Assembly (NCBI GenBank): GCA_963971425.1
Contig: OZ020518.1
Location: 29,580,770 to 29,644,769, forward strand
Direction: 5' to 3'
DNA length: 64,000 nt
From: Bryoerythrophyllum caledonicum
Taxonomy: Eukaryota > Streptophyta > Bryopsida > Pottiales > Pottiaceae
In this document: positions 13,495 to 59,728 of the stretch, piece after piece
How positions within the stretch are numbered: position 1 is the stretch's first letter
How the letters are laid out: every line of letters starts with the position of its first letter
Notes under the pieces: model-generated
What the model saw: only the letters and a program-made list of their open reading frames with translations
Told to the model about the DNA's origin: nothing
Databases searched by the model: none
Made by a program: the position numbers and the translations under genes

Positions 13495-13558
13495 GTAAGT
13501 CCAAGAACCCTCTCCCTTCAGAATTCGGTACTAACACCCCTTTGCTATTCTTTTACAG
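13495..13558 (+). other. Probable 64-bp spliceosomal intron before ORF1 of element B
   Basis: The donor is AAG|GTAAGTCC. The acceptor is CTATTCTTTTACAG preceded by a pyrimidine-rich tract. A perfect TACTAAC branch-site word lies at 13529-13535, about 23 bases before the AG. The ORF1 ATG follows six bases after the acceptor. All three signals together in 64 bp are hard to explain by chance. Removing 64 bases would take the leader frame out of register with ORF1, so splicing would separate ORF1 from the leader. Confidence 0.6.
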
Positions 13559-13563
13559 CCCAA

Positions 13564-15185
13564 ATGTCAGATAGCGCCAAGGAAGACTGGGCCATGAACA
13601 TGGACATTGAATCACCAAATAGTACCCCCCCTAGAGCCAATACAAGGGCGGCCAGCACAGAAGAATGCGAGGCCAGCAGCAGTAAGAAGAGCAAGGTCTC
13701 CCTTAACCAAGAAGGTAACAAAACACAAGAACCTGATTTCACCAAATTCAAACTTTGGTTGGGCTTCCCAGCCATGGAGGCATTGGCCGTGGAAGAAGGG
13801 GCTGAAGAACTATTCAGTGGAGAATCTGTGATTGACATGATCACACGAGGACTCAAGAAGGAAGAGGCTATGGAGGTGGCCAAAGCAAGGATAGCCTTCC
13901 CCCGTATCCCTCAAATGCTCTACCCTATGACTAGAGTTGGAGTGGAAGGACAACACTACAATATCACGCAAGTGCCATTTGACATCAAAACTAGTGAGTA
14001 TTCTGGACTCTCTCTCAATTTCCATGTTGCCATCTTCTTCGAAACCCCTAAATTCCTCTCATGCATGATGATGTTAGGAAAATGGTAATGGCAAGACTCA
14101 TGAAGATGGACATTGTTTTAGGGATAGACCTCATTGACCCAATCGCAATCCAATGCCTAAGCATAAAAAATGGGAAAACTAAAAGGGTATGGGCGGGGTG
14201 TATCAAATTGCACCTTCTAAAACCAGAAATTGATGGTTTAATGCTACTCAAAGGCCTTAGGCCTTTTATTCTAACAATTGATGGAGAATGTGTAGTGGGG
14301 AAAGTTTGCAAAACTTACCATGGAATTGCCAATGGCTCTAACCTATCCGTGAAAATCAAGAGTGAGTCATTGGTGGGGATATCCGCACAAGTCCTTTTCA
14401 AAGAAGCACTTGGAAATAGCTTCCACCGGAGGCAAGAGTTTGAAATAACGGGAGTACAAAAAGTCACCGAAGACTCACATGCCTTCATCATCGCCACCAC
14501 ACCTCAGCAAGTGAAAAAGATTTTGTTGCACGATATCACCTTGCGTGGAGAGGTTGTGCATGCAAGACAAGTCCTTTCCACCAAAGGACCCAAAGGTATT
14601 ATCGAATCCAAAGCTAGGAAAGATGCATTGACACTCACCTTATCACATCTCCCCATTTGTTTGAATGTTGAAAGCACAACACATGAAATTTATAAAATCA
14701 TGGGTGGAGCTAATGTACGTTCGATTTGGTTTCACCGAGACAATGGCACTAACCACAATGGTAGTGCCAACGTCTTATGCTCTAACGCCATTGTCTATAG
14801 AACTTTTGTGAAGAAAACACATCTCATTGGTGGGAACTACGTTGACTTCTCACCCCACCGAAGGAGCTTGGAAGGGCTCGAGCCTCCAACGGAAGAGCAA
14901 GTGAAGTCATTTGGTTTTGACGACATCAACACCGCGATTGTCAACACTATAGCTACATACAACATGCAAGAGAAGAACGACAACATCACCAAGAGAGATA
15001 TGGTGGAACTCTTGGAAGAAAACAACAAGAAGATGAGGCAAGAGAATATGGACTACACCAACAAACTACATGGTGAATTGAAGGCTCAAATGGAAGAGAT
15101 TCAAGAGTCCATGTTTGCCACACTTGAAGGCATGAGAGCCTTCACGAGCAAAATCAACAAACCAAGACTTGAGCCAAACATGTGA
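13564..15185 (+). pseudogene. ORF1 of LINE element B, one frameshift
   Basis: The start is the ATG at 13564 (MSDSAKEDWAMNMD), chosen because it is the first Met after a long Met-free frame and lies just past a splice acceptor. The frame breaks near 14050-14065, where a few bases are missing relative to element A, and continues in 14061-15185 to a TGA at 15183. The product would be about 540 aa. It has an acidic, Ser-rich N-terminus, a conserved core (FKLWLGFPAMEALAVEEG; VWAGCIKLHLLKPEIDGL) and a C-terminal coiled coil (ELLEENNKKMRQENMDY). The role is presumed to be RNA binding or particle assembly, by position and by the coiled coil; no named domain is recognised. Element C lacks this gene. 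Confidence 0.82.
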
Positions 15186-17393
15186 ACCCAAAAGACCACA
15201 TAGTAATACGTATATATCCTATAGAATACCACAATATACAAATAGATCCTTTATACAATACTAGGAATAAATATATAGAAGTATACAAATATATAAATAC
15301 AGCATATAGAAGCTGTATTGAATACTATACTAAAAACCGTACTAGCTATTGCAATATATACATTGCAAAACACTGTATTTTTTACTCCATTAAATACAAA
15401 TACTATACGAAATATTATGATAAATACACAAGTGATACCATATTCAAACAACAATACAAATACTTGGCGATACAATACAAATTTATTTGGCGAGACTTTA
15501 AATACAAAATACAACATTATATTAGGCCTCACAAATATTTATACCGTATGAAAAGAAACAAAAAAATACACATACACCGTAAACCGCACACTAAACTAGA
15601 ATTGATACTACAGTACACAACATCTAGCACACAATATAATAAAAATAATGATACAAATAATGGTACGTACGCTACTACATACACTAATAGAAATAAAGAT
15701 ACATACGGTGGCACCTATACTGATACGACTACCGGTAAGTATACTGGTATACATACTGACATGAATACTGGTACGTAAATTGGTACGAATACTGATATGT
15801 ACACTTGTACGTATATCAATAAAGACACTTGTACTAATATCGACAAATATACTGATACGTATACTGAAACATACGCGAATACGAATACAAATACTAAAAT
15901 GAATAATGGCAAGAATAGAGATACGAGCACTGACACAAATAGTGACAAAAATAGTGACAAAAAATACAATGAAAATATCAAGAATATGACCGAGATGAAG
16001 AAAATAATAAGTTCGATTGTTAAACAAAATACATCTATAAAGTATATCATGAAAAACAAATATACTCAAAATCAAAAAGCAAGCAACAAACTCGAAAATC
16101 ACAAAATAAAAGAAAGGACAAACACAAAAAGTAAGAAATTTATTAAACCTAGTAAAGAAGTAAAAAACACAAAGAGAAATAAAAAAATTAGAACTTACAT
16201 GAAATACATATGGAAAACAAAGATTAGAAATGATTCAAAACAAATAAATACTAAGAAGAATATTAAAAAACAAAGAAAATCTACAAGAGAAGATATAACT
16301 AAGAAAGGAAAGAGAAAATAAGTACCACAACTACATATAACAAAAAAGGAAAAAATAATAATGAAAACAATAATAGAAATAAGGGTAGAGGGAAATCTAA
16401 ACCCAAAAACCATCAGAAGATAAGGAATATAAAAATGACTGAAAATAGAAAAGTCAAGGAGAGTAAAAAGAGATATTATAAATTAAATAGGAAGAAGATA
16501 GATATTTATAAAATTTCAAAGGTTTCAAATAGACTAAGTAATATTAAAAATATAAAGAATAAATCGGAGAGAATATATATGAAGAAAATAAAGGGTAAGG
16601 CAGAAAACCACTATCATAAGAAAACATATAACAAGAACATAACAACAAACAACAGTACTAAAAATAGAATTAGCCTCTTAAGAAAATAAAAAATAAACGA
16701 TGGAAGAATAAGCAAATTAGTAATGAGAATTAATTATAATAAGAATTCAAATATAAATAAAATAGCTGTAAACAACAATACTAAAAATAGAATATGCTTC
16801 TTAAGGAAATAAAAAATATGCGATGGAAATATAACCGTATTAGTAATGAAAATTAATGATAATAAGAATACAAATATGAATAAATTAGCTATAAACAACA
16901 ATACTAAAAATAGAATACGCTTCTTAAGAAAATCAAAAATAAGGGATGGAAAATTAATTAAATTAGTAATGAGAATTAATGATAACAAGAATACAAATAT
17001 GAATAAAGTAGTTATAAACAGCAGTACTAAAAATAGAATATACTTCTTAAGAAAATCAAAAATAAGGGATGGAAAATTAACCAAATTAGTAATGAGAATT
17101 AATTATAATAAGAATACAAATATGAATAAAATAGTTATAAACAACAGTACTAAAAATAGAATATACTTCTTAAGAAAATCCAAAATAAGGGATGGAAAAT
17201 TAATCAAAATAGTAATAAGAATTAATTATAATGAGAATACAAAGATTAAGAAGACAGCTATAAACAGCAAGACTAAAAATAGAATACGCTTACTAAGAAA
17301 ATCAAAAATAAGGGATGGAAAATTAACCAAACTTGTAATGAGGAAAAAAATTATAGAGTAAAAATAAATAGAGAAGTTAGTAATAATAAAATA
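15186..17393 (+). other. Spacer of element B with basic, Asn/Lys-rich open frames
   Basis: Between ORF1 and ORF2 lie about 2.2 kb of A-rich DNA. Open stretches at 15182-15778 and 15797-16321 are in one frame separated by a single TAA. Further ones at 16435-16689 and 16846-17361 share another frame. They encode Tyr/Lys-rich, then Thr/Asn-repeat (TNTDTYT), then strongly basic peptides (NKKIRTYMKYIWKTK). No domain is recognised. The first frame overlaps the ORF1 end at ATGTGA. Confidence 0.5.
16600..17345 (+). repeat. 123-bp tandem repeat (41 codons), about 6 copies
   Basis: The word AAAATAGAAT recurs at 16661, 16784, 16907, 17030, 17153 and 17276, exactly 123 bp apart, with a degenerate seventh unit near 17404. 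Each unit encodes a basic peptide containing KNRIxFLRKSKIRDGKL. The first two units contain a stop (AAATAA in place of AAATCA); later ones are open. Confidence 0.93.
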
Positions 17394-17591
17394 GTGCAGA
17401 CTAAAAATAGAAATTGGAATATAATTTTTAGGGATAAAAGGAAAATTAATAGTAATATTGAAATTGATATATATAAAGATGGGAAGAGGTTGCGATTGAA
17501 GAGTACAAATTTGTTGAGAGTATGTCAAATAATAAAAATAGAAGGGTTAATTTATGTCTCGCCGGCCGGTTGTGCGCCGAAGGTTCCAAAA

Positions 17592-17664
17592 ATAGAATTA
17601 CGAAAAATAGAAATTCTAAAAATAGAAATTCTAAAAATAGAAATTCTAAAAATAGAAATTCTTA
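17592..17664 (+). repeat. 15-bp tandem repeat (KIEIL)
   Basis: About five copies of AAAAATAGAAATTCT encode KIEIL repeats in the frame of the downstream ORF2 start. The period is again a multiple of three. Confidence 0.9.
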
Positions 17665-18014
17665 TAACAGTAAGACTGTATACGAATCTGATTGAAATAA
17701 ATATCAATATATTTTTTCTGTGTACTGGTACGTATCTGTATAACTATCTGTATAATGGTACGTATACAGATACGTATACTGCTGCATATACTAATACAAA
17801 TACTGATACTTACACAAATACCAATATGAATATTGGTACGTATACTAGTACGTACCAAAACACGAATACTATAAAGGATACTGATTCAAACACCGAGACA
17901 AAAACCGAGGTATATACTAATACGAACATACGAATAAATAATAATACGAAAACAAATAAAAATACATATACACACACAAAGACAACAACACACCATCAAC
18001 ATAACACATACAGA

Positions 18015-18050
18015 GAAGAACGCCGGTCTCCGAAGAAGGCTGGCGTGAAT
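18015..18050 (-). repeat. Antisense copy of the LINE 3'-terminal hairpin
   Basis: GAAGAACGCCGGTCTCCG and the bases after it are the reverse complement of the 3' end seen at 28816-28845 and 35858-35890. It lies inside the ORF2 leader of element B. A shorter version lies at 3552-3570 in element A. Element C lacks it. Confidence 0.8.
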
Positions 18051-18164
18051 CGTATCACATACATATACATACACACATACAAAAATAAATACACACAATC
18101 AATAAAACACCAAAGTCACATACAAAAACAAAAAAACTTTAAACAAAACAAAAAACCCATCTAC

Positions 18165-18215
18165 TACAAACTACTAATATTAATCGGAGGAGACATAGAG
18201 ACTAACCCAAGACCT
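18165..18215 (+). other. Degenerate first 2A module, element B
   Basis: The codons read YYKLLILIGGDIETNPRP. The essential Gly of NPGP is Arg (AGA at 18210-18212), so skipping should not occur. It is followed by the same KRHPTSHKKNAK block as the second module 510 bp downstream, so the whole module was duplicated. Confidence 0.85.
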
Positions 18216-18671
18216 ATGCCGTACGTATTAAAAAGACACCCCACTTCACACAAAAAGAATGCCAAAACATATTTCATACCAAATACTAATACAAACACCA
18301 AAACAAACAATTGTACAAACCACAAAGTATATAATAACACCGCATATGAAAAAAAGGACTTAAAAACCACTTTAAAAACCAACATAAACCCACATACAAA
18401 TAGTCTTAAACATAAGAGTTACATACACACACGGACAAAAACAACCAAGATAAAATACAGCCAATCATACATACATCCATACACCACTAAAACAAAAACA
18501 ACCACAAAAAACACATGGACAAAAAATAAACTAACGACAAAAACAACTACACCTACTATAAAAATAAATAAACCCACAACTCACACACAAAATACAAACA
18601 TCCACCTACCCCCAAACCAACAAGCCATTAACAACACAACAAAGCCTTTGAAATACACCACTAAACATATA

Positions 18672-18725
18672 TACCACAAACTTCTACTACTTCTAGGAGG
18701 AGACATTGAAACCAACCCGGGACCC
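18672..18725 (+). other. Second, canonical 2A module, element B
   Basis: The codons read YHKLLLLLGGDIETNPGP, a full 2A core with a Leu-rich lead-in. The predicted break is between the Gly codon at 18720 and the Pro codon at 18723. Confidence 0.9.
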
Positions 18726-18952
18726 ATGCCCAATATACTAAAAAGACATCCTACATCACATAAGAAAAATGCCAAAATCTACTTTATACCTAATACCATA
18801 AAACTCCAACCAGAATATGAACACATTGCAAAACCCTTCGCACCACTCCTAAAAAACACACACACATTACACCACATACACAACACTTCCCACCCAAACA
18901 TTGCCCAATACATACAACAAAAAAATAAGCATCCACCACCCCACATCTTATA

Positions 18953-18963
18953 TGCACTAATAA
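18953..18963 (+). repeat. Left target-site duplication of element C
   Basis: TGCACTAATAA is repeated exactly at 28855-28865; the bases beyond differ on both sides. It is 11 bp, the same length as the duplication made by element B. Confidence 0.93.
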
Positions 18964-20766
18964 GGAGGAGAGATGTCTGAGAGTAGCTGAGAGCTCCGTA
19001 TTTTCTGGTTAGGTGCAACAAAGAAGTTAGTCTCTGGGAAGAGGTGTGAGTGCAACGAAGGTGGCTGGATCTGTTGCATACCCCGCTCATAGCTAAGATC
19101 AGAGGCAATAGTGGGCTTTGAGAGTGGCGTTGTGTTGGGCAGGGGTAGTAAAGGTCAGATCTAACCCTGGCATTCGAAATTTGAGCGATCTGAAGGTAGA
19201 TTGGAGTGAGGGATGACCTGAAAGCACTGGGACCCTGTGTTGGCACTCGATCTAACTTCTTAGAACTCAAACACGATATACAGGTGTAGATCTAACTTGT
19301 GTTGGTTGTGACGCCCTAAGCCCACTTAGACTTCTTGATTGTTGCCCCGACCCAGAAACCACCACACATACGATCTGAAGTCCACACACAGATTCGGGAT
19401 AGTAGCGGCTCACACTGAAGGAGCCAACCAGCAGCGAGAACGAGATCTCAAGTCCACACAAGTGCAAGAGAGTGCAACCAAGTTACAGAACAGACGAGAG
19501 GAAACCGACGATCAAGGAAGTTCACATGACCTGAAGTGCATCCAAGTTCTGCAGCAAACATCAGCCACAAAGAAGCACACCAACAGCACGAAACCAAGCA
19601 GACAGCACTCCATCCCTGGAGTGCCCAGGTTCGATCTGACCTTACTTCATTTCAATTTATTTTTTGTTTGTTTATTAGTGTTTGATTTGTTTGCACATTA
19701 CAGTATACGAGTGATACAAAGAGATCTACAGAGCACTCACACACTAGTAGCTACCTCCGACATCTTACATATCACCACACTCACATACACTAGATGTAGA
19801 TCACCACAAGCTCACTGTAACAACACGCACATAAAGCTCCACACTAGATCTCTGATAGAAAACCCTATTAAGCTCGTATGTGTAGATCGCACGCGGAAGC
19901 GCTGGAAATTTTTCCCAGATCTAGATCTACCTGCACATCAGCAACAAAGACACACAACATCAACACTGAAGAAAACGACACGTCGACAGCAGTGCACAAG
20001 AACACGACGCAACGGCCAACAAATCCGTAACTCTATCCACATCACAACAAGACCTCACAGCAAGATCGCAACATACAATAACACCTCAACAGGGAGCAAC
20101 CTACAGCAACTTCACACCAAGATTCGATCAAACGTAACGGAGGACCAAGATCCAGCCCGCGGCAACATAACAGGGAGCACACTCTACCCCTCCTCTCACA
20201 GTTCTTCCCCTTCTTGCATTCCTCACTCACCGCTCTCACCTTGCTTAAACCCTCCACCTCTCCTCCATGTTCCCTCCTTCATTCTCACCACAGATTCCAA
20301 GCTCCCCCACCCAAGCCCCCGGCGCATTACTACAGACAGTCACCTGAATCGAATCCAAAGACCACGACCCAACCCTCCACAAACCCTCGCACTCACACAA
20401 CTTCTCCCTGCGAACCTCTCCCTGCAAACCTCTCCCCATAGCGACCCCTGGAACTCCCCTTGCGACCTACAAAACCTTGGTAGCGACCTTGTGAATCTTC
20501 ATAGCGACCCCTGGAAATCCCCCTGCGACCTATCAATTGGTAGCAACAACCCCTGGAAATCCCCCTGCGACCTACCAATTGGTAATAGCGACCTCCCTAA
20601 TCCCCCCTGCGACCTACCTAATTCCCCTAGCGACCTACCTAATTCCCCTTGCGACCTACCTAATCCCCCTTGCGACCTACCTAATCGCCCTTGCGACCTA
20701 CCTAACCCCACTACCAGTACATATACTGGTACGTATTCTGGTGCGTATTCTGGTACGTATTCTGGT
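18964..20766 (+). other. Leader of element C, open but without Met from 19339
   Basis: The frame of ORF2 is stop-free from 19339, yet its first ATG is at 20767, some 476 codons later. This repeats the pattern in the leader of element B. The stretch is Thr/Gln/His/Arg-rich, then Pro-rich. A possible 3' splice site (TTTGCACATTACAG) ends near 19703. No domain is recognised. Confidence 0.55.
20440..20710 (+). repeat. 21-bp tandem repeat (DLPNxPC), element C leader
   Basis: Clean 21-bp units such as TGCGACCTACCTAATCCCCC recur from about 20585 to 20710, preceded by longer, looser versions from 20440. They encode DLPNSPC, DLPNPPC and similar. The same words occur in degenerate form at 360-803 in element A. 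Confidence 0.9.
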
Positions 20767-21060
20767 ATGTATAATCATACGAATACCGATATGAATACTG
20801 ATACATATATTGATACGTATATTGGAGTACATATTGGTACGTATATTGGTACGTATATTGGTACATATACTGATTCATATACTGATATGAATACTGATAT
20901 GAATACCAATACAAATACTTGTACGAATACTAACACGAATACTTACACAAATATTGATACGAATACCAAGACGAATACTTACACGAATACTCATACAAAT
21001 ACCAAGACGAATATTAAGGCACATACTAATACGAACATACGAATGAATACAAATATAAAA
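20711..21060 (+). repeat. Imperfect hexamer repeat encoding Thr/Asn/Tyr
   Basis: ACGAATACT- and ACGTATAT-like hexamers give TNTNTYTNT and TYIGTYIGT peptides in the ORF2 frame. A comparable run is at 15640-15900 and 17740-17950 in element B. Confidence 0.85.
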
Positions 21061-24000
21061 CCAAATACAACTACATATACACACACAAAGACAACCACAC
21101 ACCATCAAAGAAACACATACATATACACACACACACACAAAGACGAATACATACAATCAAAAAAGCACCAAAAAAAATACCAAAGCCACATACAAAAACA
21201 CAAAATTCCAAAACAAAACAATAAACCCACCTACTACAAACTACTAATATTAATTGGAGGGGACATAAACACAAGGCCAAACACAACCAAAAAAAAATAT
21301 AAACAAACACACACACACCTATACACCATTAATAAAACAAAAACAAGTACGCAAACAAACACATGGACACAAAAAAAATTAAAGATAAATACAATTACAT
21401 TCAAAAAAAATATTGAATTTATAAACATCCACCTCTCTCCAAACAAACAAGACCTCCATAACATAACAAAGCCCCAAAGAATTACAAAAAAAGAAAAAAC
21501 ATTAAAAAACAACACTAAACACACATATCACAAACTCCTACTACTTCTAGGAGGGGACATAGAAACTAACCCAGGACCCATGCCTAATATACTAAAAAGA
21601 CACCCTACTTCACATAAGAAAAATGCAAAAATTTACTTCATACCTAATACCATAAAACTACAACCGGAATATAGACACATTGCAAAATCTTTTGCACCTT
21701 TCTTAAAAAACACACATACATTACACCACACACATAACAACACATATCCAAACATTGCCCGATACGTTCAACAAAAAAATGCGCATCCACCACCTCACAT
21801 ACTATATGCTCTAGTAGTCACTACCCATCCACACATAGATGAATGTAACCATCTCTTAAACCCACAAAACCTGAACACAATTACATGGGTCAATACACTT
21901 CTACAAAACTTACTAAACTTACAAAATCCACCGGAACGACACATCTACACTTCACACCCGTATACAAAGTTCCTTGAAGACAACCAAAATATTATAAACC
22001 ATGAGAACTCAATACATAAGGAACTATATGACTTTTTACACAGCGAAACAATATCTCCCTCAAATGAAACAATAAAAATAAAATTCCCCTACCTACCTAA
22101 CAATCTCATCAATGAATCACTAAAATGTTTGGACCCTATACCAGAATACACCCACCCACCCCCACCACTTCCCTACATCTCTCCGCAAAACCAAAATATT
22201 ATATCAAATCAAGAAAATACATACATAATCACATGGAATGCCTCCTCTCTAAACACTGCCCTTCCTAGCCTACAAACTTTGGTCACGCACACAAATACAC
22301 CACCAGCCCTCATAGTTATACAAGAAACAAAATTATCTGCCACAAAATCCACAAAATATATACAAAATATATTTCAAGACTATAAACTCATCTATAACAA
22401 TATACATGCACTTACAAGATGCATTCAACAACGAAGACCATACACACCAGGCCGAGGAGGTCTCCTTACACTAATACACAAAAAATATGCCTTCCCGGGC
22501 AACATCAACAAAATCCCTACCCCAATGCACATATCACCTTACATTCAAATAATCAAAATTACTAATCACCCTCTACAACCATGGTTAATCTTTCACATGT
22601 ATATGCCATCTCATCCCGAAGACACTAGATTTATCATAGACATACAAAACACTATTACTTCCCAAATTCATAATAACCCTAATCACACATACCTATTGTG
22701 TGGGGACTTCAACAGAGACATAGCATTAATTGGTCGCCAAAATGGAAATCATAACACCCCCCCTCAAACCATTGATTACCAATGGCGCCGCTTCACAGAA
22801 AACTTAAACTTCGTCTACATCGATACCGATACACAATTCTCTAGACAAGGTGGCTATAATTACAGCGACTGGAGTCTAATAGATGGATTCTACATAAATA
22901 CAAACAACAATACACAATACACCTCTACAACAAACAAGGATGTTATTCTCAACTCGGACCACTCACCTATACAATTACACATTCCAAATAACACATTAAT
23001 TAATAGAACTCCTACAATCCTAAAAAATGATACTATACGCATACTCAACCCCATTCCAAAAGACAATATAGAAAAATTCAACACCAAATTCTTTGAAAAA
23101 AACTCCATACAAATAGACTCCCTCATAAACACTCTCGAAAATAACAATCAATTATCACAAATACAATGGCAAGAAGCATGCCACACCCTAGACAAACTTA
23201 TCAATGCAATCTCTGACACACTAGAACAAACTTGTAAAGCCCAACCAATACCTCAAATGACAAACAGAACTTCTCAACAAGGAGGTTACTTACCCCGTAA
23301 ACTTTCTAAAACTTGGAAACAACACCTAACCACATACCATACTATACGGAAAACCATTAGAATTGTAAAAAATAACCCTCAATGGCGTAATCACCCCATA
23401 TGCAACGAACTACTAACTATACAATACACCCAAATCCCTACCCCGCCACCTTCGGACCTACCTCACGATACATGGATAAAAAATATAGCACTAATTGCAA
23501 AAAATGCCAACATACAAGCCCGCAAAATTACCTCAAAATATACCAAAGATAACATTAAAAAAGCCATTTCAAAATATAGACAACTATACGAAATTAGCCC
23601 CAAAAAAATTAACAGGAAAGTTTTTAAAAACCTTGAATATCCACCAATGGATTGTATCACAGACCAATACAACAATATTCTAACTAGCCCAGAAGACATT
23701 GCAAATGAAATATTCAACCAACAAACCAAAAGTAATAGACCAACAGTACCAACATGTAATTATCAACCACAACATCCATCTGAATGTACATGTGCAGTAC
23801 GCCAGTACCCATGGCACGACCTCGATGGATTTACCCTTGACAAACGAGGCGAACCAGAAATCTCACTACATAAATACTTTAATATAGCCACATATGACAC
23901 ATGTCTTCACAATCTTGGTAACAACAAAGCCCCAGGCCCAGACCGCATCCCAAACTCAATACTAAAAAACATGCCCCCAAGATTCCATAAACTATTATTA

Positions 24001-27000
24001 CTATTCTTTTCTCATTGTTACAAACAAAAACAAATACCTATGTCATGGAAATCAAGTACAACAATTCTACTATACAAAAAAGGCGATCCATCTATACTAC
24101 CCAACCATAGGCCAATTGCACTAGCTAACACAATATACAAACTCTTCACTAGTACACTCACCTCTATACTATCCTCATACGGTGAAAAATTCAAAATCTT
24201 ACATGATAGTCAAGAAGGATTTAGAGCAGAAAGAAGTACCGCTAGACAAATACAAACTATAATAGCCGCACTAGAAGACGCAAGATTTACAAACCAAGAT
24301 ATATACATACTATACGTCGACTTCAAAAACGCCTTTGGCTCAATGGACCATGCCCGACTATTAGCAATAATGATGGACCTTGGTTACCCAAAAGATGCAA
24401 CTACACTTATTGGTAACATCTATTCTCAATCATCTACTTGTTATACTGGTGAACATTTTGGGAAAACAAAACCTATACCCATTCAAAGAGGAACTATACA
24501 AGGGGATACCCTTAGCCCATACCTATTCATTATATTCTTAGAACCACTACTCAGATGGCTAGAACGAGGCAACAATGGATACACTTTTGGCACATCACAA
24601 GTCACAATAAATTCTGCCGCATACGCAGATGACCTCGCCGCCATAACTAACAAAATCAAATCTATCCAAATACAACTCAACAAAATTGATAGATATTGTA
24701 AATGGACCGGAATGGACGTAGGTGTCCCAAAATGTGCCGCTACCGGATGCCCAAACAAATCCAAAATAAACCCTACCACTTTTAAAGCCCTTATGCAAGC
24801 TTCCAGCATCAATTACCGCAATCAACCAATCCCCATATTACACCAAAATGAACCATACATATACTTAGGTACAAATCTTGTTCCATCACTAAAATGGAAA
24901 ATCCAAATCCACACCACAACGACGAAACTCATCAAACAATGCAATGAACTAACAACATGCCCGGCCACCATGAAACAAAAAATAAAAATGATTGATACCG
25001 TACTACGTCCAGGTGTGGCATACAGTTTCTACGGTGTACCATACTCTATGCCTGCTATCAAAAAACTTGATAAAAAAATAATAGCCATACAAAAAACCAT
25101 ATGTGGACTACCAAAATGCATGTCAAATGCAATAACCCAACTCCCGCATAACCTATTCGGGCTTGAAGCTTTCTCCCTCAAAAACGCATACCTCCGTTGT
25201 ATAGGTGAACAACTACAAAATGCCTTAAATGATAAAGGTAGACTTGGAAAAATATATAATGGACTAACTCATTATGTCCTTGCCCAATACGGTGGCGCAG
25301 AAAACATACCTAGAATTAAAACAAGTGACTGCATAAGATCACCGATAACACGAACATTCTTCTTATTAAAACATATAGCTAAAGCCCACCTTAAAAGTAC
25401 GCTCCCAAACTTCCTCATTAATCCTACAACACTAGAAATACTATGGCGCCAAGAAACACTAAATCATAACACACTCAATGCCCAACTCTCCCAAAAGCTT
25501 CTACAAAAACTCATCTCAAAAAATATTTTTGAACTAAACCAAATTACTATACCAAACGGCACACACATCATGAACAATGAGGATTTCAAAACCTACCACT
25601 TCACCCCATCCAAACTAATAAAAAGTGCCCTAAATGTTGCTAAACAACTATTTTGCCACCCAACATGCCCCACTACATGTCATACTCCTTGCAACATACA
25701 CCCATACTCTCATATACTTAAAGATCCATTCACCACCCTCAACAATAACATCATCCCAAGAAATATTCCCACACCAACCAACCCCCCTAACCCTCCACAT
25801 ACATACCACCCCCGCCCCCCAACATACATCCCCAAAAACCCTACCACATATCCCATTAATAATATCATAAACCATAAACATATCCAACACACAGACACAA
25901 ATAACATAAAAAATACATACACAAAATATTTATGTCAATGGCAACACAATGATAACACATACAATAAATGGCTTCCCCAAAGAGACCTATTTCCACGACA
26001 TGACACCAACACCTCCACACATAACACAGAAAAATTAAAACAATACTACCAAAAAATTCAAAACAAAACATACTCGGATATCATCCTAGCACACCACCCC
26101 CAAGAACAATTCTCAGACTCAAGATCCGTAACACCACCCATAATTATCCCTCTCTTAAACATCCACACAACAGAATGCAACCCCGAAAATGATATCCTTA
26201 CATCCTCAAACACAATCCAAATAAATAACAATCAAGCACATCTATACGAAGAAAATGGCCGACATTTACATACCATCCCCATTACTAGACTCCAATGGCT
26301 ATGGAATCAATACAATATAAATTTACAAACTCCTACAAACATCGAACCAACGACCCAATCCTTTGAAACCGAAATAATCTGGCTATACCAAAGGTATAAA
26401 TACCGAATACCAAAAACTGACCCCCTAAAAAATGCACAATACACAATACCCACTCCCATCTTAGACTCATTAATCACATCCTTTAACATCGAACAAGCAT
26501 ACTTTTCTTCCCCGGTCACATGTTCTACCAAACTAAAAAAATTCTACTCATCTTATGAAAGGGATAAAATATTCGGATCCCTAGGAAAGGCCTTTGACTA
26601 TAAATGGATTGGTAAAGGTATAGCTCACCCCCACAACGAGAAAGATATGGAACAAGCAATACATTGGGCTCGACTTGCCGCCAAACACGATCCAAATAAC
26701 ACAAATACGATCATCATCACACCGAACAACAATTGGTACCAAAACAATAACCAACATTTAAATCCATTTTTAGATTCCCATATCATTGCAGTATTTGAGG
26801 CAGACACAATACCATACGAAGAACCTACTATCCCACCCGAACTAAAAAAACCCCGAATCGAGCCATCAACATTACAAATACTATGCGTCCATCATCAAAA
26901 TCAAACCCTAGGTTCCCTAGAACAACTTGCTGAACTTACCACCATAACAAACAATTTAAACATACACCGAATATACACAAAATTGGCCCCACCAACACCC

Positions 27001-28602
27001 ATACAAACCCCAGTAAACAAAAGTAAAAACTGGTCCAAACTAAACTATGTCAACAACACATTAAACTACTCCGTCACACCTCCCCCTCTCCCTGACTACC
27101 CAACTCATACTACACCAAAATTTAACCCCGCACACAGTTACTACACTGACGGCTCCTTTAAACCACCAGAACAAATTAGCCCGGGTTCTTGGCGCAGAGA
27201 AAAAGCTGGCTATGGCATATTTAATTCTATCAAAGAAATTAAACTAGCCAAAAGACTCCATGGCCTACAAAACGTCCTCAGAGCAGAACTCATGGCCATT
27301 CACAAAACACTACAAATCATCACAACAAAATACAAAAATGAACCTGCACATATATTCACCGATTGTATAAATGTACTCTACCTACTAAACACTCAAATAA
27401 CACACCCTACCCTTCCCAATAGCCACCCCGACCAAACCATATTATCATCAATGGTCCAAATGTTACAAAACCGTACACAAATCACAACTCTTCACAAAGT
27501 GAAAGCCCATGCCAACATTGACGGCAACGAACAAGCAGACAAACTTGCAAAAGAAGGCCGAGAAAAAACACACAAAAATGCCAAAGATCCACACGAACAT
27601 GCCCATGCCACCCCATACTACTTTCAAAAAGAAGATTGGCCTTCCAAAGAAGATACCCCCGACAAAGGCCCAATTAGATTTTTGGGCAAATATCTCAAAA
27701 AACAAGACCTCTACAACAACCTTGACACAATCTCAGAAAATATTCCTTACATAGAAAAATGGACTAATAATAACGACATAGACAATGAACTCTCTACAAA
27801 CTTTTGGAAAAACCCCATCATCTCAGACTCACAAATAACATGCCTCATCAAATTCCGTACTGGTCAATATATGGGAAACGCTCGCAAACAACTCTTCTTT
27901 GGAATAGAAAGGTTCCCATCCATAACATGCCCCATATGCCCCTCAACGGACCCCGACACATGGCTTCATGTTCTACTCAAATGCCAAAACCACCACATAC
28001 ACTCTCTAATTGTTAAAAGGCATAATAAAGCGGTAGGGGAAGTCCGGAAATTAATCACCTCCTACAATAAAGCGAGATGTTTTATACTAATGAACGCCGG
28101 CACTTTTAATAACAATCCACAAGAAAATACAGTCCCCCCTTGGCTACTCCCATGCTCATGTGTGATCCAAAGATGTCATTGCAACGCTAGGCTCAAACCG
28201 GACATCCTATGTGTTAGAGGTTTAGCATACAATGATCCGCCACCCGACCACATTAATCAAGACTACACCATTCAATTCATTGAATTCACATATTGCAACG
28301 ATAGATTTTCTCCGGAAACAATCCAAAACAAAATAGACAAATATCAACCCCTCATTGACGACATCATTGCCTTTGGATGGAAGGTAGACCCCCTTATTGT
28401 TATCACATCTGGCGCTCGTGCCACCACCTTTATCCCATCTATGAAAACTCTAGAAGATACCTTCAAAATACCCATTGAAACAATCAAAACCACCTTTAAA
28501 AAAATTAACACCATCGCTATTCAATATGCCATGTCCATTTTGCTACATAAACGTAAAATTGAAAACAACCAAGCCCTCCCCGATACTCAAGATCCCCCTT
28601 AA
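20767..28602 (+). CDS. Intact ORF2 polyprotein of LINE element C (2A, APE endonuclease, RT, RNase H, PD-(D/E)XK-like)
   Basis: This is the enzyme of target-primed reverse transcription. The first ATG is at 20767, giving 2611 aa; the frame is open further up but without Met. In residues from that ATG: Thr/Asn leader 1-252; 2A-like motif ending NPG|P at 270/271; APE-type endonuclease about 486-740 (Asn491, Glu520, GDFN with Asp647, SDH 730-732); reverse transcriptase about 1090-1385 (YVDFKNAF with Asp1185, YADD 1286-1289); a conserved unnamed domain about 1930-2030; RNase H with Asp2128, Glu2174, Asp2199, Asp2258; zinc knuckle C2388-x2-C-x9-H-x4-C; and KPD (Asp2479)-x26-Glu2506-x-Thr, a PD-(D/E)XK-like pattern as in R2-type endonucleases. 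Two endonuclease types in one protein recall Dualen/RandI elements of green algae. Skipping at 2A would release a 2341-aa enzyme. No stop or frameshift is present. Confidence 0.93.
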   Translation: MYNHTNTDMNTDTYIDTYIGVHIGTYIGTYIGTYTDSYTDMNTDMNTNTNTCTNTNTNTYTNIDTNTKTNTYTNTHTNTKTNIKAHTNTNIRMNTNIKPNTTTYTHTKTTTHHQRNTYIYTHTHKDEYIQSKKHQKKYQSHIQKHKIPKQNNKPTYYKLLILIGGDINTRPNTTKKKYKQTHTHLYTINKTKTSTQTNTWTQKKLKINTITFKKNIEFINIHLSPNKQDLHNITKPQRITKKEKTLKNNTKHTYHKLLLLLGGDIETNPGPMPNILKRHPTSHKKNAKIYFIPNTIKLQPEYRHIAKSFAPFLKNTHTLHHTHNNTYPNIARYVQQKNAHPPPHILYALVVTTHPHIDECNHLLNPQNLNTITWVNTLLQNLLNLQNPPERHIYTSHPYTKFLEDNQNIINHENSIHKELYDFLHSETISPSNETIKIKFPYLPNNLINESLKCLDPIPEYTHPPPPLPYISPQNQNIISNQENTYIITWNASSLNTALPSLQTLVTHTNTPPALIVIQETKLSATKSTKYIQNIFQDYKLIYNNIHALTRCIQQRRPYTPGRGGLLTLIHKKYAFPGNINKIPTPMHISPYIQIIKITNHPLQPWLIFHMYMPSHPEDTRFIIDIQNTITSQIHNNPNHTYLLCGDFNRDIALIGRQNGNHNTPPQTIDYQWRRFTENLNFVYIDTDTQFSRQGGYNYSDWSLIDGFYINTNNNTQYTSTTNKDVILNSDHSPIQLHIPNNTLINRTPTILKNDTIRILNPIPKDNIEKFNTKFFEKNSIQIDSLINTLENNNQLSQIQWQEACHTLDKLINAISDTLEQTCKAQPIPQMTNRTSQQGGYLPRKLSKTWKQHLTTYHTIRKTIRIVKNNPQWRNHPICNELLTIQYTQIPTPPPSDLPHDTWIKNIALIAKNANIQARKITSKYTKDNIKKAISKYRQLYEISPKKINRKVFKNLEYPPMDCITDQYNNILTSPEDIANEIFNQQTKSNRPTVPTCNYQPQHPSECTCAVRQYPWHDLDGFTLDKRGEPEISLHKYFNIATYDTCLHNLGNNKAPGPDRIPNSILKNMPPRFHKLLLLFFSHCYKQKQIPMSWKSSTTILLYKKGDPSILPNHRPIALANTIYKLFTSTLTSILSSYGEKFKILHDSQEGFRAERSTARQIQTIIAALEDARFTNQDIYILYVDFKNAFGSMDHARLLAIMMDLGYPKDATTLIGNIYSQSSTCYTGEHFGKTKPIPIQRGTIQGDTLSPYLFIIFLEPLLRWLERGNNGYTFGTSQVTINSAAYADDLAAITNKIKSIQIQLNKIDRYCKWTGMDVGVPKCAATGCPNKSKINPTTFKALMQASSINYRNQPIPILHQNEPYIYLGTNLVPSLKWKIQIHTTTTKLIKQCNELTTCPATMKQKIKMIDTVLRPGVAYSFYGVPYSMPAIKKLDKKIIAIQKTICGLPKCMSNAITQLPHNLFGLEAFSLKNAYLRCIGEQLQNALNDKGRLGKIYNGLTHYVLAQYGGAENIPRIKTSDCIRSPITRTFFLLKHIAKAHLKSTLPNFLINPTTLEILWRQETLNHNTLNAQLSQKLLQKLISKNIFELNQITIPNGTHIMNNEDFKTYHFTPSKLIKSALNVAKQLFCHPTCPTTCHTPCNIHPYSHILKDPFTTLNNNIIPRNIPTPTNPPNPPHTYHPRPPTYIPKNPTTYPINNIINHKHIQHTDTNNIKNTYTKYLCQWQHNDNTYNKWLPQRDLFPRHDTNTSTHNTEKLKQYYQKIQNKTYSDIILAHHPQEQFSDSRSVTPPIIIPLLNIHTTECNPENDILTSSNTIQINNNQAHLYEENGRHLHTIPITRLQWLWNQYNINLQTPTNIEPTTQSFETEIIWLYQRYKYRIPKTDPLKNAQYTIPTPILDSLITSFNIEQAYFSSPVTCSTKLKKFYSSYERDKIFGSLGKAFDYKWIGKGIAHPHNEKDMEQAIHWARLAAKHDPNNTNTIIITPNNNWYQNNNQHLNPFLDSHIIAVFEADTIPYEEPTIPPELKKPRIEPSTLQILCVHHQNQTLGSLEQLAELTTITNNLNIHRIYTKLAPPTPIQTPVNKSKNWSKLNYVNNTLNYSVTPPPLPDYPTHTTPKFNPAHSYYTDGSFKPPEQISPGSWRREKAGYGIFNSIKEIKLAKRLHGLQNVLRAELMAIHKTLQIITTKYKNEPAHIFTDCINVLYLLNTQITHPTLPNSHPDQTILSSMVQMLQNRTQITTLHKVKAHANIDGNEQADKLAKEGREKTHKNAKDPHEHAHATPYYFQKEDWPSKEDTPDKGPIRFLGKYLKKQDLYNNLDTISENIPYIEKWTNNNDIDNELSTNFWKNPIISDSQITCLIKFRTGQYMGNARKQLFFGIERFPSITCPICPSTDPDTWLHVLLKCQNHHIHSLIVKRHNKAVGEVRKLITSYNKARCFILMNAGTFNNNPQENTVPPWLLPCSCVIQRCHCNARLKPDILCVRGLAYNDPPPDHINQDYTIQFIEFTYCNDRFSPETIQNKIDKYQPLIDDIIAFGWKVDPLIVITSGARATTFIPSMKTLEDTFKIPIETIKTTFKKINTIAIQYAMSILLHKRKIENNQALPDTQDPP
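21235..21279 (+). other. Decayed first 2A module, element C
   Basis: YYKLLILIGGDINTRP keeps the lead-in and GGD but has lost E-x-N-P-G-P. It corresponds to the degenerate module at 18165 in element B, about 300 bp before the good copy. Confidence 0.8.
21526..21579 (+). other. Canonical 2A module, element C
   Basis: YHKLLLLLGGDIETNPGP is encoded in frame inside an intact polyprotein. The predicted break is between the GGA at 21574 and the CCC at 21577. It is identical at protein level to the B copy, although the codons differ, which argues for selection on the peptide. Confidence 0.93.
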
Positions 28603-28854
28603 ATGCTTCTCCGCCGAGACTTATCTTGACTGGTTGGTTTTGTGGTTTTGGCGACTTGCTTTGTTAGTTGTTACATTGGTTGTTTGTGTGCTTGGTTGGT
28701 ATCAGGTCACCTGCTACATAGTGTCTACCCTCGAGAGGGGGAAGTAGTTCCAGTTTACTAATTCCTTGTCCGGTGGGCATGGTCTTAGTAGTGGAACGAA
28801 CAGACACTTTATTCACGCCGGCTCCTTCGGAGACCGACGTTCTTCTTCTTCTTC
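28603..28854 (+). promoter_or_regulatory. 3' UTR of element C with conserved hairpins and TTC tail
   Basis: A G/T-rich stretch is followed by a block shared with A and B: TACCCTCGAGAGGGGGAAGTA (self-complementary centre), then GGGCATGGTC, then a terminal stem-loop around 28816-28840 with a TTC loop, then five TTC units in place of poly(A). Such 3' hairpins are bound by reverse transcriptase in other LINEs; here this is inferred. Confidence 0.75.
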
Positions 28855-28865
28855 TGCACTAATAA
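28855..28865 (+). repeat. Right target-site duplication of element C
   Basis: TGCACTAATAA is an exact match to 18953-18963. Element B resumes at 28866. Confidence 0.93.
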
Positions 28866-31800
28866 TCACTACTCATCCAAGCATAGATGAATGTAACCAA
28901 CTTCTAAATCCACAAAATTTGAACACAATTACATGGACTAATACACTCCTACAAACCTTATTAACCTTACAAAACCCACCAGAACGACACATTTACACTC
29001 CACACCCCTATACTGAATTCCTAGTAGACAACCAAAATATTATAAACCATGAGAATTCAATACATAAAAGACTATACGACTTCTTACACAGTCAAGACAT
29101 ACCACCCTCAAATGATATAATAAAACTAAAATTCCCTTACCTCCCTAACAACCTCATAAATGAATCACTAAATTGCCTAGACCCTATACCAGAATACACC
29201 CACCCACCCCCACCTCTTCCCTACATCCCTCCTCAAAATCAAAACATTAGACCAAACCAAGAAAATACATACATAATCACATGGAATGCCTCCTCACTAA
29301 ACACTGCCCTTCCTAGCTTACAAACTCTAGTCGCAAACACAGACACACCACCGGCTTTTATAGTTATACAAGAAACAAAACTAACCGCCACAAAATCTAC
29401 AAAATATATACAAAATATATTTCAAAACTATAAACTCATCTTTAACAACACACATGTACTTACAAGATGCATGCAACAAAGGAGACCATACACACCGGGC
29501 CGCGGTGGCCTCCTTACATTAATACACAAAAAATATACATTCCCCGGCAACATCAACAAAATCCCTACCCAAATGCACATATCACCATACATTCAAGTAA
29601 TTAAAATCACTAATCACCCACTACAACCGTGGTTAATCTTTCACATGTATATGCCATCCCATCCCGAAGATACTAGATTTCTCTTAGATATACAAAACAC
29701 TATTACAACCCATATTAATAATCATCCCAATCATACATATCTATTATGTGGAGACTTCAATAGAGACATAGCGCTAATTGGCCGCCAAAATGGAAACCAC
29801 CACACCCCCCCTCAAAACATTGATTACCAATGGCGCCGCTTCACAGAAAACTTAAACTTCACTTACATCAATACCGATACTCAATTCTCTAGACAAGGTG
29901 GCTACAATTATAGTGATTGGAGTCTAATAGATGGTTTCTATATAAATACAAACAACAACACACAATACACCGCCACAACAAACAAAGATATTATTCTCAA
30001 TTCGGACCACTCACCCGTACAACTGCACATCCCAAATAACACACTAATTAGTAGAACTCCTACAATCCCAAACAAAGACACTATACGCATACTCAACCCC
30101 ATCCCAAAAACCAACATAGAAAAATTCAACACAAAATTCTTCGAAGAAAACTCTGTACAAATAGACTCCCTCATAAACATTCTTGAAAACAATAGCCAAT
30201 TTACACAAGCTCAATGGCAAGAAGCATGCCACTCTCTAGACAACTCATCAATAAAATCTCTGATACACTAGAACAAACTTGTAGAGCACACCCAATACCC
30301 CAAATGACAAACAGAACCTCTCAACAAGGCGGGTATCTACCCCGCAAACTTTCTAAAACTTGGAAACAACACTTAACCACATACCATACCATACGTAAAA
30401 CCATTAGAATTGTAAAAAACAACCCTCAATGGCGTAACCACCCCATACACAACGAACTACTAACTATACAACACACCCAAATCCCTACCCCGCCGCCTCC
30501 GGACCTTCCCCACGATACATGGATAAAAGATATCGCGATAATTGCAAAAAATGCCAACATACAAGCCCGGAAAATAACCACAAAATACACCAAAGATAAC
30601 ATTAAAAAAGCCATCTCAAAATACAGACAACTATACGAAATCAGCCTCAAAAAAATTAACAAAAAAGTCTTTAAAAACCTTGAATCCCCACCAATGGATT
30701 GTATCAAAGATCAATATAATAATATTCTAACTAGCCCCGAAGACATTGCGAATGAAATATTTAACCAACAAACAAAAACCAATAGACCAACAGTACCAAC
30801 ATGAAATTACCAGCCACAATATACAATAGAATGCACATGTGCAATACGCCAATACCCTTGGCACGACTTGGACGGATATACCCTTGACAAACGGGGCGAA
30901 CCAGAAATTCCACTTCATAAATACCTCAACAGAGCCACATACGACACATGCCTTCAAAATCTTGGAAATAATAAAGCCCCACGCCTAGACCGCATACCAA
31001 ACTCAATACTAAAAAACATGCCTCCAAGATTTCACAAGCTATTATTTCTGTTCTTCTCCCACTACTATAAACAAAAACAGATACCAAACTCATGGAAATT
31101 AAGTACAACAATTCTACTATACAAAAAAGGCGACCCGTCCATACTACCCAACCATAGACCAATTGCACTAGCTAACACAATATACAAACTCTTTACCAGT
31201 ACACTCACCTCCATATTATCCTCATACGGCGAAAAATTCAAAATCCTACATGATAGTCAAGAAGGATTTAGAGCAGAGAGAAGTACCGCACGACAAATAC
31301 AAACTATAATAGCCGCACTAGAAGACGCAAAGTTTACTAACCAAGATATATACATACTATACGTGGATTTCAAAAATGCCTTTGGCTCAATTGACCATGC
31401 CCGACTACTAGCAATAATGATGGACCTTGGCTACCCAAAAGATGCAACTACACTTGTTGGAAACATCTATTCTAAATCATCTACATGTTATACCGGTGAA
31501 CACTTTGGGAAAACAAAACCTATACCCATCCAAAGAGGAACTATACAAGGGGATACCCTCAGCCCATACTTATTCATTATATTTCTAGAACCACTACTCA
31601 GATGGCTAGAAAGAGGAAATTACGGATACACTTTGGCACATCACAGGTCATAATAAACTCTGCCGCATACGCGGATGACCTAGCCACCATAACTAACAAA
31701 ATCAAATCAATCCAAATACAACTAAACAAAATTGATAGATATTGTAAATGGGCCGGTATGGACGTAGGTGTCCCAAAATGTGCCGCTACCGGTTGCCCAA

Positions 31801-34800
31801 ACAAATCCAAATTGAATCCTACCACTTTCAAAGCCCTAATACAAGCCTCGAACATCAATTACCGCAATCAACCGATCCCCATACTACACCAAAATGAACC
31901 ATACATATACTTAGGCACAAACCTTGTTCCCTCACTAAAATGGAAAATCCAAATCCACACCACAACGACAAAACTCATCAAACAATGCAAATAACTAACA
32001 ACATGCCCAGCCACCATAAAACAAAAAATAAAAATGGTTGATACCGTACTACGCCCAGGAGTGGCATACAGTTTCTACGGTGTACCATACTCTATGCCAG
32101 CTATCAAAAAACTTGATAAAAAAATAATAGCCATACAAAAAACCATATGTGGATTACCAAAATGTGTGTCAAACGCAATAACCCAACTACCACATAACCT
32201 ATTTGGACTTGAAGCTTTCTCCCTCAAAAACGCATACCTCCGATGTATAGGCGAACAACTGCAAAATGCTCTAAACGATAAAGGAAGACTTGGGAAAATA
32301 TATAATGGATTAACTCACTATGTCCTTGCCCAATATGGTGGCGCTGAAAACATACCGAGAATTTAAATAAGTGACTGCATAAGATCACCAATAACACGAA
32401 CATTCTTCTTATTAAAACAAATAGCTAAAGCCCACCTTAAAAGTACGCTCCCAAACTTCCTCACTAATCCTACAACACTAGAAATACTATGGAGCCAAGA
32501 AACATTAAATCATAACACACTCAATGCCCAACTCTCCCAAAAGCTTCTACAAAAACTCCTCTCAAAAAATATTTTTGAACTAAACCAAATTACCTTACCT
32601 AACGGTACACACATCATGAACAATGAGGACTTCAAAACCTACCACTTTACCCCATCTAAACTATTAAAGAGCGCCCTAAGTGTTGCTAAACAATTATTTT
32701 GCCACATAACATGCCCCACTCTATGTCATACTCCTTGCAACATACATCCATACTCTCATACACTTAAAGATCCATTCATCACCCTCAACAATAACATCAT
32801 CCCAAGAAATATTCCCACACCAACCAATCCCCCTAACCCTCCACATACATACCACCCCCGCCCCCCAACATACATCCCCAAAAACCCTACCACATACCCC
32901 ATTAATAATATCATAAACCATAAACATATCCAACACACAGACACAAATAACATACAAAATACCTACACAAAATATCTATGCCAATGGCAACACAATGATA
33001 ATACATACAATAAATGGCTCCCCCAAAGAGACCTTTTTCCACGGCATGACACCAATACCTCCACACATAACACCGAAAAATTAAAACAATACTACCAAAA
33101 GATCCAAAACAAAATATACTCAGATATCATCCTTGCCCACCATCCACAAGAACAATCCTCAGACTCAAGGTCCGTAACGCCACCCATAATTATCCCACTC
33201 TTAAACATCTACACAACAGAATGCAACCCCAAAAATGATATCCTTACATCCTCAAACACAATTCAAATAGATAACAATCAAGCACATCTATACGAAGAAA
33301 ACGGCCGACATTTACACATTATACCCATTATCCGGCTCCAATGGTTATGGAACCAATATCATACAAAATTACAATCCCCTACAAACATTGAACCAACAAC
33401 CCAACCCTTTGAGACCGAACTAATATGGCTTTACCAAAGATATAAATATCGAATACCAAAAATTGACCCCCTCAAAAATGCGCAATACACAATACCCACA
33501 CCCATTTTAGACTCACTAATATCATCCTTTAACATCGAACACTCATACTTTTCCTCCCCGATCACATGTCCTACCAAACTAAATAAATTCTACTCACCGT
33601 ACGAAAGAGACAAAATATTTGGATCCCTAGGCAAGGCCTTTGACTACAAATGGATCGGAAATGGAATAGCTCACCCCCACAACGAGAAAGACATAGAACA
33701 AGCCATATATTGGGCTAGACTTGCCGCCAAACACGATCCAAATAACACAAAAACAATCATCGTCACACCGAACAACAATTGGTACCAAAACAACAACCAA
33801 CATTCAAACCCATTCCTAGATTCCCATATCATTGCATTATTCGAAGCAGACACAATACCATACGAAGAACCTAATATCCCACCCGAGCTAAGAAAAACCG
33901 AGAATAGAGCCATCTACATTACAAATACTATGCGTCCATCATCAAAATCAAAACCTGGGCTCCCTAGAACAACTTGCGGAACTTACCTCCATAACAGACA
34001 ATCTAGACATACAACGACCATACACAAAACCGGCCCCACCAACACCCATACAAACCCCCGTAAACAAAAGTAAAAAATGGTCAAAATTAAACTATGACAA
34101 CAACACATTAAACTACTCCGTCATACCTCCCCCTCTCCCAGACTACCCAACTCATACCACACCAAAATTTAACCCCGCATACAGTTATTACACCGACGGC
34201 TCCTTTAAACCACCGGAACAAATTAGCCCGGGCTCTTGGCGAAGAGAAAAAGCTGGCTATGGCATATATAATTCTACCAAAGAAATTAAACTAGCCAAAA
34301 GACTCCATGGACTACAAAATATCCTCAGAGCAGAACTCATGGCCATCCACAAAACACTACAATTCATCACAACAAAATACAAAAATGAACCTGCACATAT
34401 ATTCACCGATTGTATAAATGCACTCTACCTACTAAACACTCAAATAACACACCCAACCCTTCACAACAGTCACCCCGACCAAACCATACTAACATCAATG
34501 GTACAAATGTTACAAAAACGTACACAAATCACAACCCTTCACAAAGTGAGAGCCCATGCCAACATTGATGGCAACGAACAAGCAGACAAACTTGCAAAAG
34601 AAGGCCGAGAAAAAACACACAAAAACGCCAAAGACCCTCACGAACATGCCCATGCCACCCCATACTACTTTCAAAAAGAAGATTGGCCTTCCAAAGAAGA
34701 TACCCCCGACAAAGGCCCAATTAGATTTCTGGGCAAATATCTCAAAAAACAAGACCTCTACAACAACCTGGATACAATCTCAGAAAATATTCCTAACATA

Positions 34801-35649
34801 GAAAAATGGACTAACAATAACGACATAGACAATGAACTCTCTACAAACTTTTGGAAAAATCCCATCATCTCAGACTCACAAATAACATGCCTCATCAAAT
34901 TCCGTACGGGTCAATACATGGGAAACGCTCGCAAACAACTCTTCTTTGGAATAGAAAGATTCCCATCCATAACATGCCCCATATGCCCCTCAACAGACCC
35001 CGACACATGGCTTCATGTTCTACTCAAATGCCAAAACCACCACATACACTCCCTAATTGTTAAAAGACATAACAAAGCGGTATGGGAAGTCCGAAAACTA
35101 ATCACCTCCTACAATAAATCGAGATGTTTCATACTAATGAACGCCGGCACTTTTAATAGCAATCCACAAGAAAACACGGTCCCCCCATGGCTACTTCCAT
35201 GCTCATGTATGACCCAAAGATGTCATTGCAACGCTAGGCTCAAATCGGACATTCTTTGTGTCAAAGGTTTACCATACAACGACCCACCACCCGAGAACAT
35301 CAACCAAGACTACACTATTCAATTCATCGAATTTACATATTGCAACGATAGATTCTCCCCGGAAACAATACAAAACAAAATAGATAAATACCAACCCCTC
35401 ATAGACGACATCATTGCCCTCGGCTGGAATGTGGACCCCCTTATTGTTATCACATCCGGCGCTCGTGCCACCACCTTTATCCCATCTATGAAAACTCTCG
35501 AAGATACCTTCAAGATACCCATTGATACAATTAAAACTACCTTTAAAAATATCAACACCATCGCTATTCAACATGCCATGTCTATTTTACTGCATAAACG
35601 CAAAATCGAAAACAACCAAGTCCTCCCTGATAGACAAGACCCCCCTTAG
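28866..35649 (+). pseudogene. ORF2 of element B, C-terminal part, broken
   Basis: It has the same domain order as element C: endonuclease 29275-30020 (CGDFNRD, LNSDHSPV), RT about 30850-31760 (YVDFKNAF, AAYADDLA), the unnamed domain about 33590-33880, RNase H about 34185-34640 (first Asp present), zinc knuckle about 34975, and the PD-(D/E)XK-like end to 35649. Breaks are a one-base loss near 30241, TGA at 30802, a one-base loss near 31635, TAA at 31992 and 32364, and a frameshift near 33895. It is inactive. Fewer breaks than element A fit a younger age. Confidence 0.92.
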
Positions 35650-35900
35650 GAACTTCGCCACTCTGTCTCTTCCTGATTGGCTGCTTGTTTGGTTTTGCTT
35701 TTTGTTGTTTAGTTAGTTTGGTCGTGGTTGGTCGTTGTTGGTTGGTTTCTGGCTACTCGTTACATAGTGTCTACCCTCGAAAGGGGGAAGTAGTTCCAGA
35801 TCGCTAATTCCTTGTCCGCTGGGCATGGTCTTAGCAACGGAACGAACAGACACTTTATTCACGCCGGTTCCCTTCGGGAACCGGCGTTCTTCTTCTTCTT
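35650..35900 (+). promoter_or_regulatory. 3' UTR of element B
   Basis: It is organised as in element C: a G/T-rich stretch, the conserved block from about 35757 (GTTACATAGTGTCTACCCTC), a terminal hairpin and a TTC tail. The hairpin at 35862-35886 is perfect: an 11-bp stem, CGCCGGTTCCC paired with GGGAACCGGCG, closing a TTC loop. Confidence 0.8.
35862..35886 (+). other. Perfect 3'-terminal stem-loop of element B
   Basis: The stem has 11 base pairs and the loop three bases. Copies at 28816, 35942 and 51450 keep the fold with some mismatches or G-U pairs. Confidence 0.88.
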
Positions 35901-35911
35901 TGGGCATGGTC
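35901..35911 (+). repeat. Right target-site duplication of element B
   Basis: TGGGCATGGTC is an exact match to 11103-11113. Confidence 0.92.
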
Positions 35912-35980
35912 TTAGTAGTGGAACGAACAGACACTTTATTCACGCCGGTCCCCTTCGGAAACTGACGTTCTTCTTCTTCT
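35912..35980 (+). mobile_element. LINE element A, detached 3' tail
   Basis: These 69 bases continue the conserved 3' block exactly where element A was cut at 11113: TTAGTAGTGGAACGAACAG, the terminal hairpin and TTC units. They end element A; unique DNA follows. Confidence 0.88.

Positions 35981-54551: not shown

Positions 54552-59728
<5,177 letters not shown>

Follow-up and report, generated by a model that had tools for sequence, protein, structure and literature searches.

Dualen/RandI LINEs of green algae, reportedly described by Kojima and Fujiwara in 2005, resemble the element analysed here in combining an APE-type and a restriction-like endonuclease (RLE) in one protein, and in having an RNase H, a 3′ repeat tail other than poly(A), and relatives in the green lineage. 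Such 3′ repeats are given for RandI families of green algae in the available part of PMC3747384. The in-frame 2A peptide and the PCIF1-like domain of the present element set it apart, neither being mentioned in the accessible portions of PMC4640811 and PMC8226300, where Dualen/RandI LINEs are mentioned. It also differs from the algal elements in having a young subfamily without ORF1.

R2 LINEs are not known to have an APE, an RNase H or a PCIF1-like domain, unlike the element described here. They are alike in that their RT is the closest in the PDB and is combined with a CCHC motif, an RHN motif and a PD-(D/E)XK endonuclease (8gh6, 9nl2, 9nl3, 9dou). A canonical 2A in a LINE protein is found in L1Tc of Trypanosoma cruzi and in the elements of Odon et al. 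2013, as excerpted in PMC4981915 and PMC12846837; these are APE-type LINEs, to judge by the title of Odon et al., whereas the element described here has two endonucleases. Methyltransferase-family domains under purifying selection are known from retrotransposons of Symbiodinium and Klebsormidium (PMC5890265, available part), but those are cytosine DNMTs in other elements, whereas here a PCIF1-type domain occurs across a whole clade.

The window, i.e., the whole stretch of 64,000 nucleotides of Bryoerythrophyllum caledonicum DNA that was analysed (C6:29580770-29644769 of a host assembly of 437 Mb in 894 contigs), contains a copy, C, that is very probably a near-full-length, recently mobile LINE of the Dualen/RandI group, with a polyprotein of the order 2A, APE, RT, PCIF1-like, RNase H and CCHC/RLE and a cycle as proposed below. 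A first-pass annotation of the sequence had interpreted the locus as a dual-endonuclease LINE polyprotein with an in-frame 2A, and this overall interpretation was supported; the true ends of the element and the PCIF1-like domain at residues 1791-2054 of its protein go beyond it.

Nested copies and the frame of copy C

Comparison of the window with itself revealed related stretches at 3783-11113, 17750-18960, 20853-28853 and 28849-35900; these are three nested elements on the plus strand, with C inserted in BD and BD in A. The whole of copy C (18964-28855, 9,892 bp between its ends) is flanked by the target site duplication (TSD) GCACTAATAA at 18954-18963 and 28856-28865; this 10-mer alone would be expected 0.24 times in the window, and the evidence lies in its position at both junctions. 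When the flanks of C were joined, the restored BD site matched copy A across the junction (86.3% over 146 bp). The sister element BD consists of a 5′ part (11114-18963), which carries ORF1 and two 2A sites, intact at 18702 and degenerate at 18192, and a 3′ part (28866-35900) in which the pol frame is broken. Its TSD, TGGGCATGGTC at 11103-11113 and 35901-35911, places it inside A, and the joined flanks of the A site matched a sister copy across the junction (93.8% over 145 bp). The oldest element, A, with a 2A at 3861 and a broken pol frame, occupies 1-11113 and its 3′ end resumes at 35912-35983; where it starts at the 5′ side could not be located within the window. All three elements terminate at the 3′ side in (TTC)n.

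ORF1 is present in A (597-1862) and BD (approximately 13754-15092) and absent from C. It has 57 homologues in public data and a possible C-terminal coiled coil; an alignment of 16 sequences gave no trustworthy match in Pfam or the PDB, and rows for apolipoproteins were discounted since they look like coiled-coil matches. Between ORF1 and the 2A frame, BD also contains a tandem array (16612-17342) of 5.9 copies of a 123-bp unit.

The pol ORF (ORF2) of copy C, counted from its first ATG, spans 20767-28602 on the plus strand and encodes 2,611 residues (protein P0001). The single intact frame previously annotated there was confirmed, being open throughout until it terminates in TAA; from base composition, the probability of 2,611 codons without a stop is about 4e-65. 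Upstream, the frame extends open and ATG-free to 19339, and the 1.8 kb leader (18964-20766, plus strand) holds 6 ATGs where about 21 would be expected by base composition, as though selection had favoured scanning through to the start of pol.

Domain order, the two endonucleases and relatives

The order in P0001 is 2A, APE, RT, PCIF1-like, RNase H and CCHC/RLE; by best hit, every one of the 56 proteins that carry all five domains has these five in the same order, with 0/56 violations. The APE-type endonuclease (residues 486-743; 22222-22995, plus strand) was recognized by Pfam PF03372 at E 9.9e-6 and contains the motifs WN, QET, GDFN and SDH; its family profile matched 76 of 106 proteins, namely P0001 and 105 homologues. 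The reverse transcriptase with YADD (residues 1061-1471; 23947-25179, plus strand) matched PF00078 at E 4.1e-26, and its PDB matches at E ≤ 1 were R2 proteins only (best E 1.3e-29). The RNase H (residues 2126-2264; 27142-27558, plus strand), which on P0001 alone reached PDB RNase H1 at E 0.13 only, is assigned from a family profile together with all five D-E-D-H-D residues. These parts, as well as the zinc knuckle, now located as a CCHC motif in the C-terminus, had been named in the first-pass annotation and were borne out, the RNase H without a Pfam row.

The C-terminal region (residues 2388-2600; 27928-28566, plus strand) combines the CCHC zinc motif, RHN and a predicted R2-type PD-(D/E)XK RLE. 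The KPD-x26-E-x-T residues proposed earlier are exactly as claimed (KPD 2477-2479, E2506 and T2508), and the assignment as an R2-type RLE is backed by a family profile, these catalytic residues and motifs, and the predicted fold. In a profile comparison of the kind that had been suggested as a check, R2 rows did appear, but the sequence profile is weak by itself, with these rows at E 0.067-0.43 below an unrelated chain at 0.0046. Pfam on P0001 alone listed neither RNase H nor RLE, and NCBIfam on P0001 listed nothing. A candidate chromodomain at residues 1699-1742 was rejected (Pfam E 0.089, below the cut-off; the profile matched no other of the 106 proteins). Some homologues carry extra domains by precomputed Pfam accession, i.e., PF02099, PF02338, PF02902, PF00145 and PF00628, which we take to be Josephin, OTU, Ulp1-type protease, DNA methylase and PHD, respectively.

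An APE N-terminal to the RT, an R2-type RLE at the C-terminus and an RNase H, as found in P0001, characterize the Dualen/RandI group. In an RT tree of 98 rows, along the lines of the check suggested by the first-pass annotation, the copy C element fell, without a close partner inside, into a clade of 89 rows with support 100/95, in which Haematococcus proteins among the named homologues were also placed. The element was filed in the Dualen/RandI group with the reservation that this tree contained no named Dualen, L1 or I reference sequences. No relatives were confirmed in viral_contigs. I-group elements and plant L1 are APE elements. The element might be imagined as a plant L1 or I-type LINE that recently captured an R2-like endonuclease and stands outside the Dualen group; an RNase H is on record for I-group elements and for plant L1 as well (PMC4640811, available part), and L1 and I references are absent from the tree. 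Such an origin is highly improbable in view of the clade support, the restriction of the PDB RT matches to R2, and the domain content of the 75 clade members that extend 900 aa or more beyond the RT, 70 of which have the RLE and all 75 the PCIF1-like domain. Membership of the Dualen/RandI group is thus the preferred assignment, and in Dualen-type LINEs the PCIF1-related domain would be a standing part of the replicase, an unexpected second life for an RNA-cap enzyme family.

The 2A motif and the PCIF1-like domain

The 2A-like peptide GDIETNPGP claimed in the first-pass annotation was located with its core, DIETNPGP, at P0001 residues 264-271 (21556-21579, plus strand), after YHKLLLLLGG. It fits the 2A/StopGo core (D/G/C/N)(V/I)ExNPGP as defined in the available part of PMC12846837, and LLLLLGG before the D agrees with the supportive context described there, which includes an L-rich upstream motif class, with one motif tested active, and G at p11 with D at p12; the same part of the source states that StopGo functions in plants. 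Among P0001 and its 105 homologues (264,677 residues), the core was seen six times against 0.002 expected by composition, always upstream of the APE. The five homologues with the core, one of which (P0069) is from Haematococcus lacustris, all have APE, RT, PCIF1-like, RNase H and RLE as well and occupy three places in the RT tree, apart from the copy C element. Since these five share it, the combination of a 2A with dual endonucleases is wider than the earlier annotation knew, and 2A use would now extend to dual-endonuclease elements.

In the host genome, the pattern coding for GDIETNPGP occurred at 712 + 690 = 1,402 sites (reversed control, 0), and the downstream anchor KKNAKIYF occurred 883 times. 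Conservation was followed in the first 60 anchor places listed, all on C1, of which 58 were in register; the core was intact in 43/58, in 20 DNA versions. In these copies, which were chosen by the anchor and not by the 2A itself, and among which the anchor favours less damaged ones, pN/pS was 0.232 before the core, 0.084 in the core and 0.068 in the eight residues after it. These ratios indicate that the core is selected as coding sequence, though no more strongly than the following residues, since 0.084 compares with 0.068. A second, degenerate 2A-like site lies upstream of the intact one in BD (18192, GGDIETNPRP) and C (21262, GGDINTRPN), and apparently arose when the 2A segment was duplicated.

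This degenerate site would suit the view that the 2A-like peptide is a relic, or ordinary coding sequence, and causes no skipping, the polyprotein being made as one piece, as would the absence of the exact core from 15/58 sampled copies and of a detectable 2A from most homologues (it is present in 6/44 proteins with >300 aa upstream of the APE, P0001 counted). We nevertheless regard a relic as unlikely: the octapeptide is identical in A, BD and C, with 3-5 synonymous and 0 non-synonymous codon differences per pair, the motif turns up on distinct branches of the RT tree and at the many genomic sites counted above, and its L-rich GG context resembles the class containing the active motif. A skipping 2A is retained in the proposed cycle.

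The domain that follows the RT (residues 1791-2054; 26137-26928, plus strand) matched Pfam PCIF1_WW (PF12237) at E 1.1e-11, above its cut-off. With PCIF1/CAPAM, the m6Am writer (PDB 6irv-6is0), it shares the methyltransferase fold and the motifs FASPLN and FGS. The alignment of the fold spans zebrafish residues 422-671 only, which limits any comparison of the helical (cap-groove) domain. It differs in lying inside a LINE polyprotein, in having HPHN in place of NPPF and in the lack of a WW match: PF12237, despite its name, is the PCIF1 core, and no WW family was among the four Pfam matches of P0001 at E ≤ 1. The dN/dS of the domain, 0.11-0.22, points to strong purifying selection.

The kept fold and this selection would also be expected of a domain that is still a methyltransferase, on RNA (e.g., the cap-proximal A of the element) or on DNA, with a shifted catalytic motif, for which NPEY, the commonest motif at the catalytic place in relatives (16/80 readable rows), might be a candidate. 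This is doubtful, however, as NPPF occupied that place in 0/80 readable rows (the sole NPPF among the 106 proteins, in P0084 at 1532, lies ahead of the PCIF1-like domain), HPHN stands there in copy C, P-H is kept at the middle positions in eight host-genome copies fetched by family search, and changes of N553 and F556 were used to inactivate PCIF1 (PMC10544176, available part). Tentatively, and with a probability that we put only in the lower range, the LINE clade may have ancestrally captured a cap-recognising PCIF1 that is now a non-methylating module by which the replicase keeps hold of the element's mRNA at the capped 5′ end. Recognition of the cap would then govern the choice of template or copying over the full length, and in several branches the 2A would detach an N-terminal leader peptide from this replicase. 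With the domain in the replicase, recognition of the cap by a LINE becomes open to direct testing. Among the literature matches listed, no title concerned PCIF1 in a LINE or a 2A in Dualen; prior mention is possible in Kojima and Fujiwara 2005, Odon 2013, Iyer 2016 and Boulias 2019.

Copies in the host genome, the proposed cycle and other features of the window

A search of the host genome with PF12237 yielded 2,614 candidates at first look; the 150 that were scored all passed the cut-off, and 14 control genomes yielded none. Of these 150 rows, 33, copy C included, had one and the same score and a frame open over exactly 3,087 aa. Thirty of the 32 other copies with this frame were fetched, and TSDs of 9-13 bp were found in 26/30 (15 of them 12 bp; counted without a shuffled control); at the other four junctions, two had 7-bp matches only, which may be chance, one had none and one was unreadable. 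The 5′ starts varied by up to several tens of bases. Nearly all TSDs (25/26) start with T, and 14 with TG, the first base being ambiguous since the tail can end in T. The copies thus move by target-primed insertion, and the subfamily with the 3,087-aa frame is recent; because its 26 TSDs differ in sequence, the element is not tied to one target, unlike R2. This young multicopy subfamily offers a test bed for the division of labour between two endonucleases.

In the proposed cycle, a capped transcript would be translated from the ATG-poor leader, and the ribosome would skip the Gly-Pro bond at the 2A, as the motif and its conservation suggest, so that an N-terminal peptide of low complexity, about 270 residues long, is freed from the replicase. 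The replicase would then nick the first strand and, in target-primed fashion, prime reverse transcription from the (UUC)n tail, as the tails and TSDs show indirectly. The other strand would be cut with a stagger of about 12 bp, which would lead to the observed TSD of 9-13 bp, and either endonuclease could make either cut. The PCIF1-like domain may be retained for an NPPF-independent purpose, most likely the binding of the element's own capped RNA or of another partner, a step proposed with low confidence.

Elsewhere in the window, two stretches (46884-46955 and 51418-51484) match the final 70 bases of the LINE at 78-79% identity, while its remainder is absent; they may be old truncated copies or SINEs sharing the LINE 3′ end. 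Exons of a host gene for a plant-type alanine aminotransferase lie at 54919-57502 on the minus strand, two of them tested and the others recognized by eye; the two tested preferred 3tcm, which we take to be the barley enzyme, over 3ihj, presumably the human one (92.0 vs 65.7 and 118.5 vs 67.1 bits). An exon-like ORF at 46143-46460 on the minus strand matched DUF1995 (PF09353, E 0.00029, below the cut-off). Both genes are consistent with a host of the green lineage, and a streptophyte is plausible. Long ORFs at 37208-40367 on the minus strand resemble, by reading, a broken transposase-type gene, with no Pfam match, and a paired-box/HTH transposase-like N-terminus (PF13384, PF00292) lies at 41548-41901 on the same strand.
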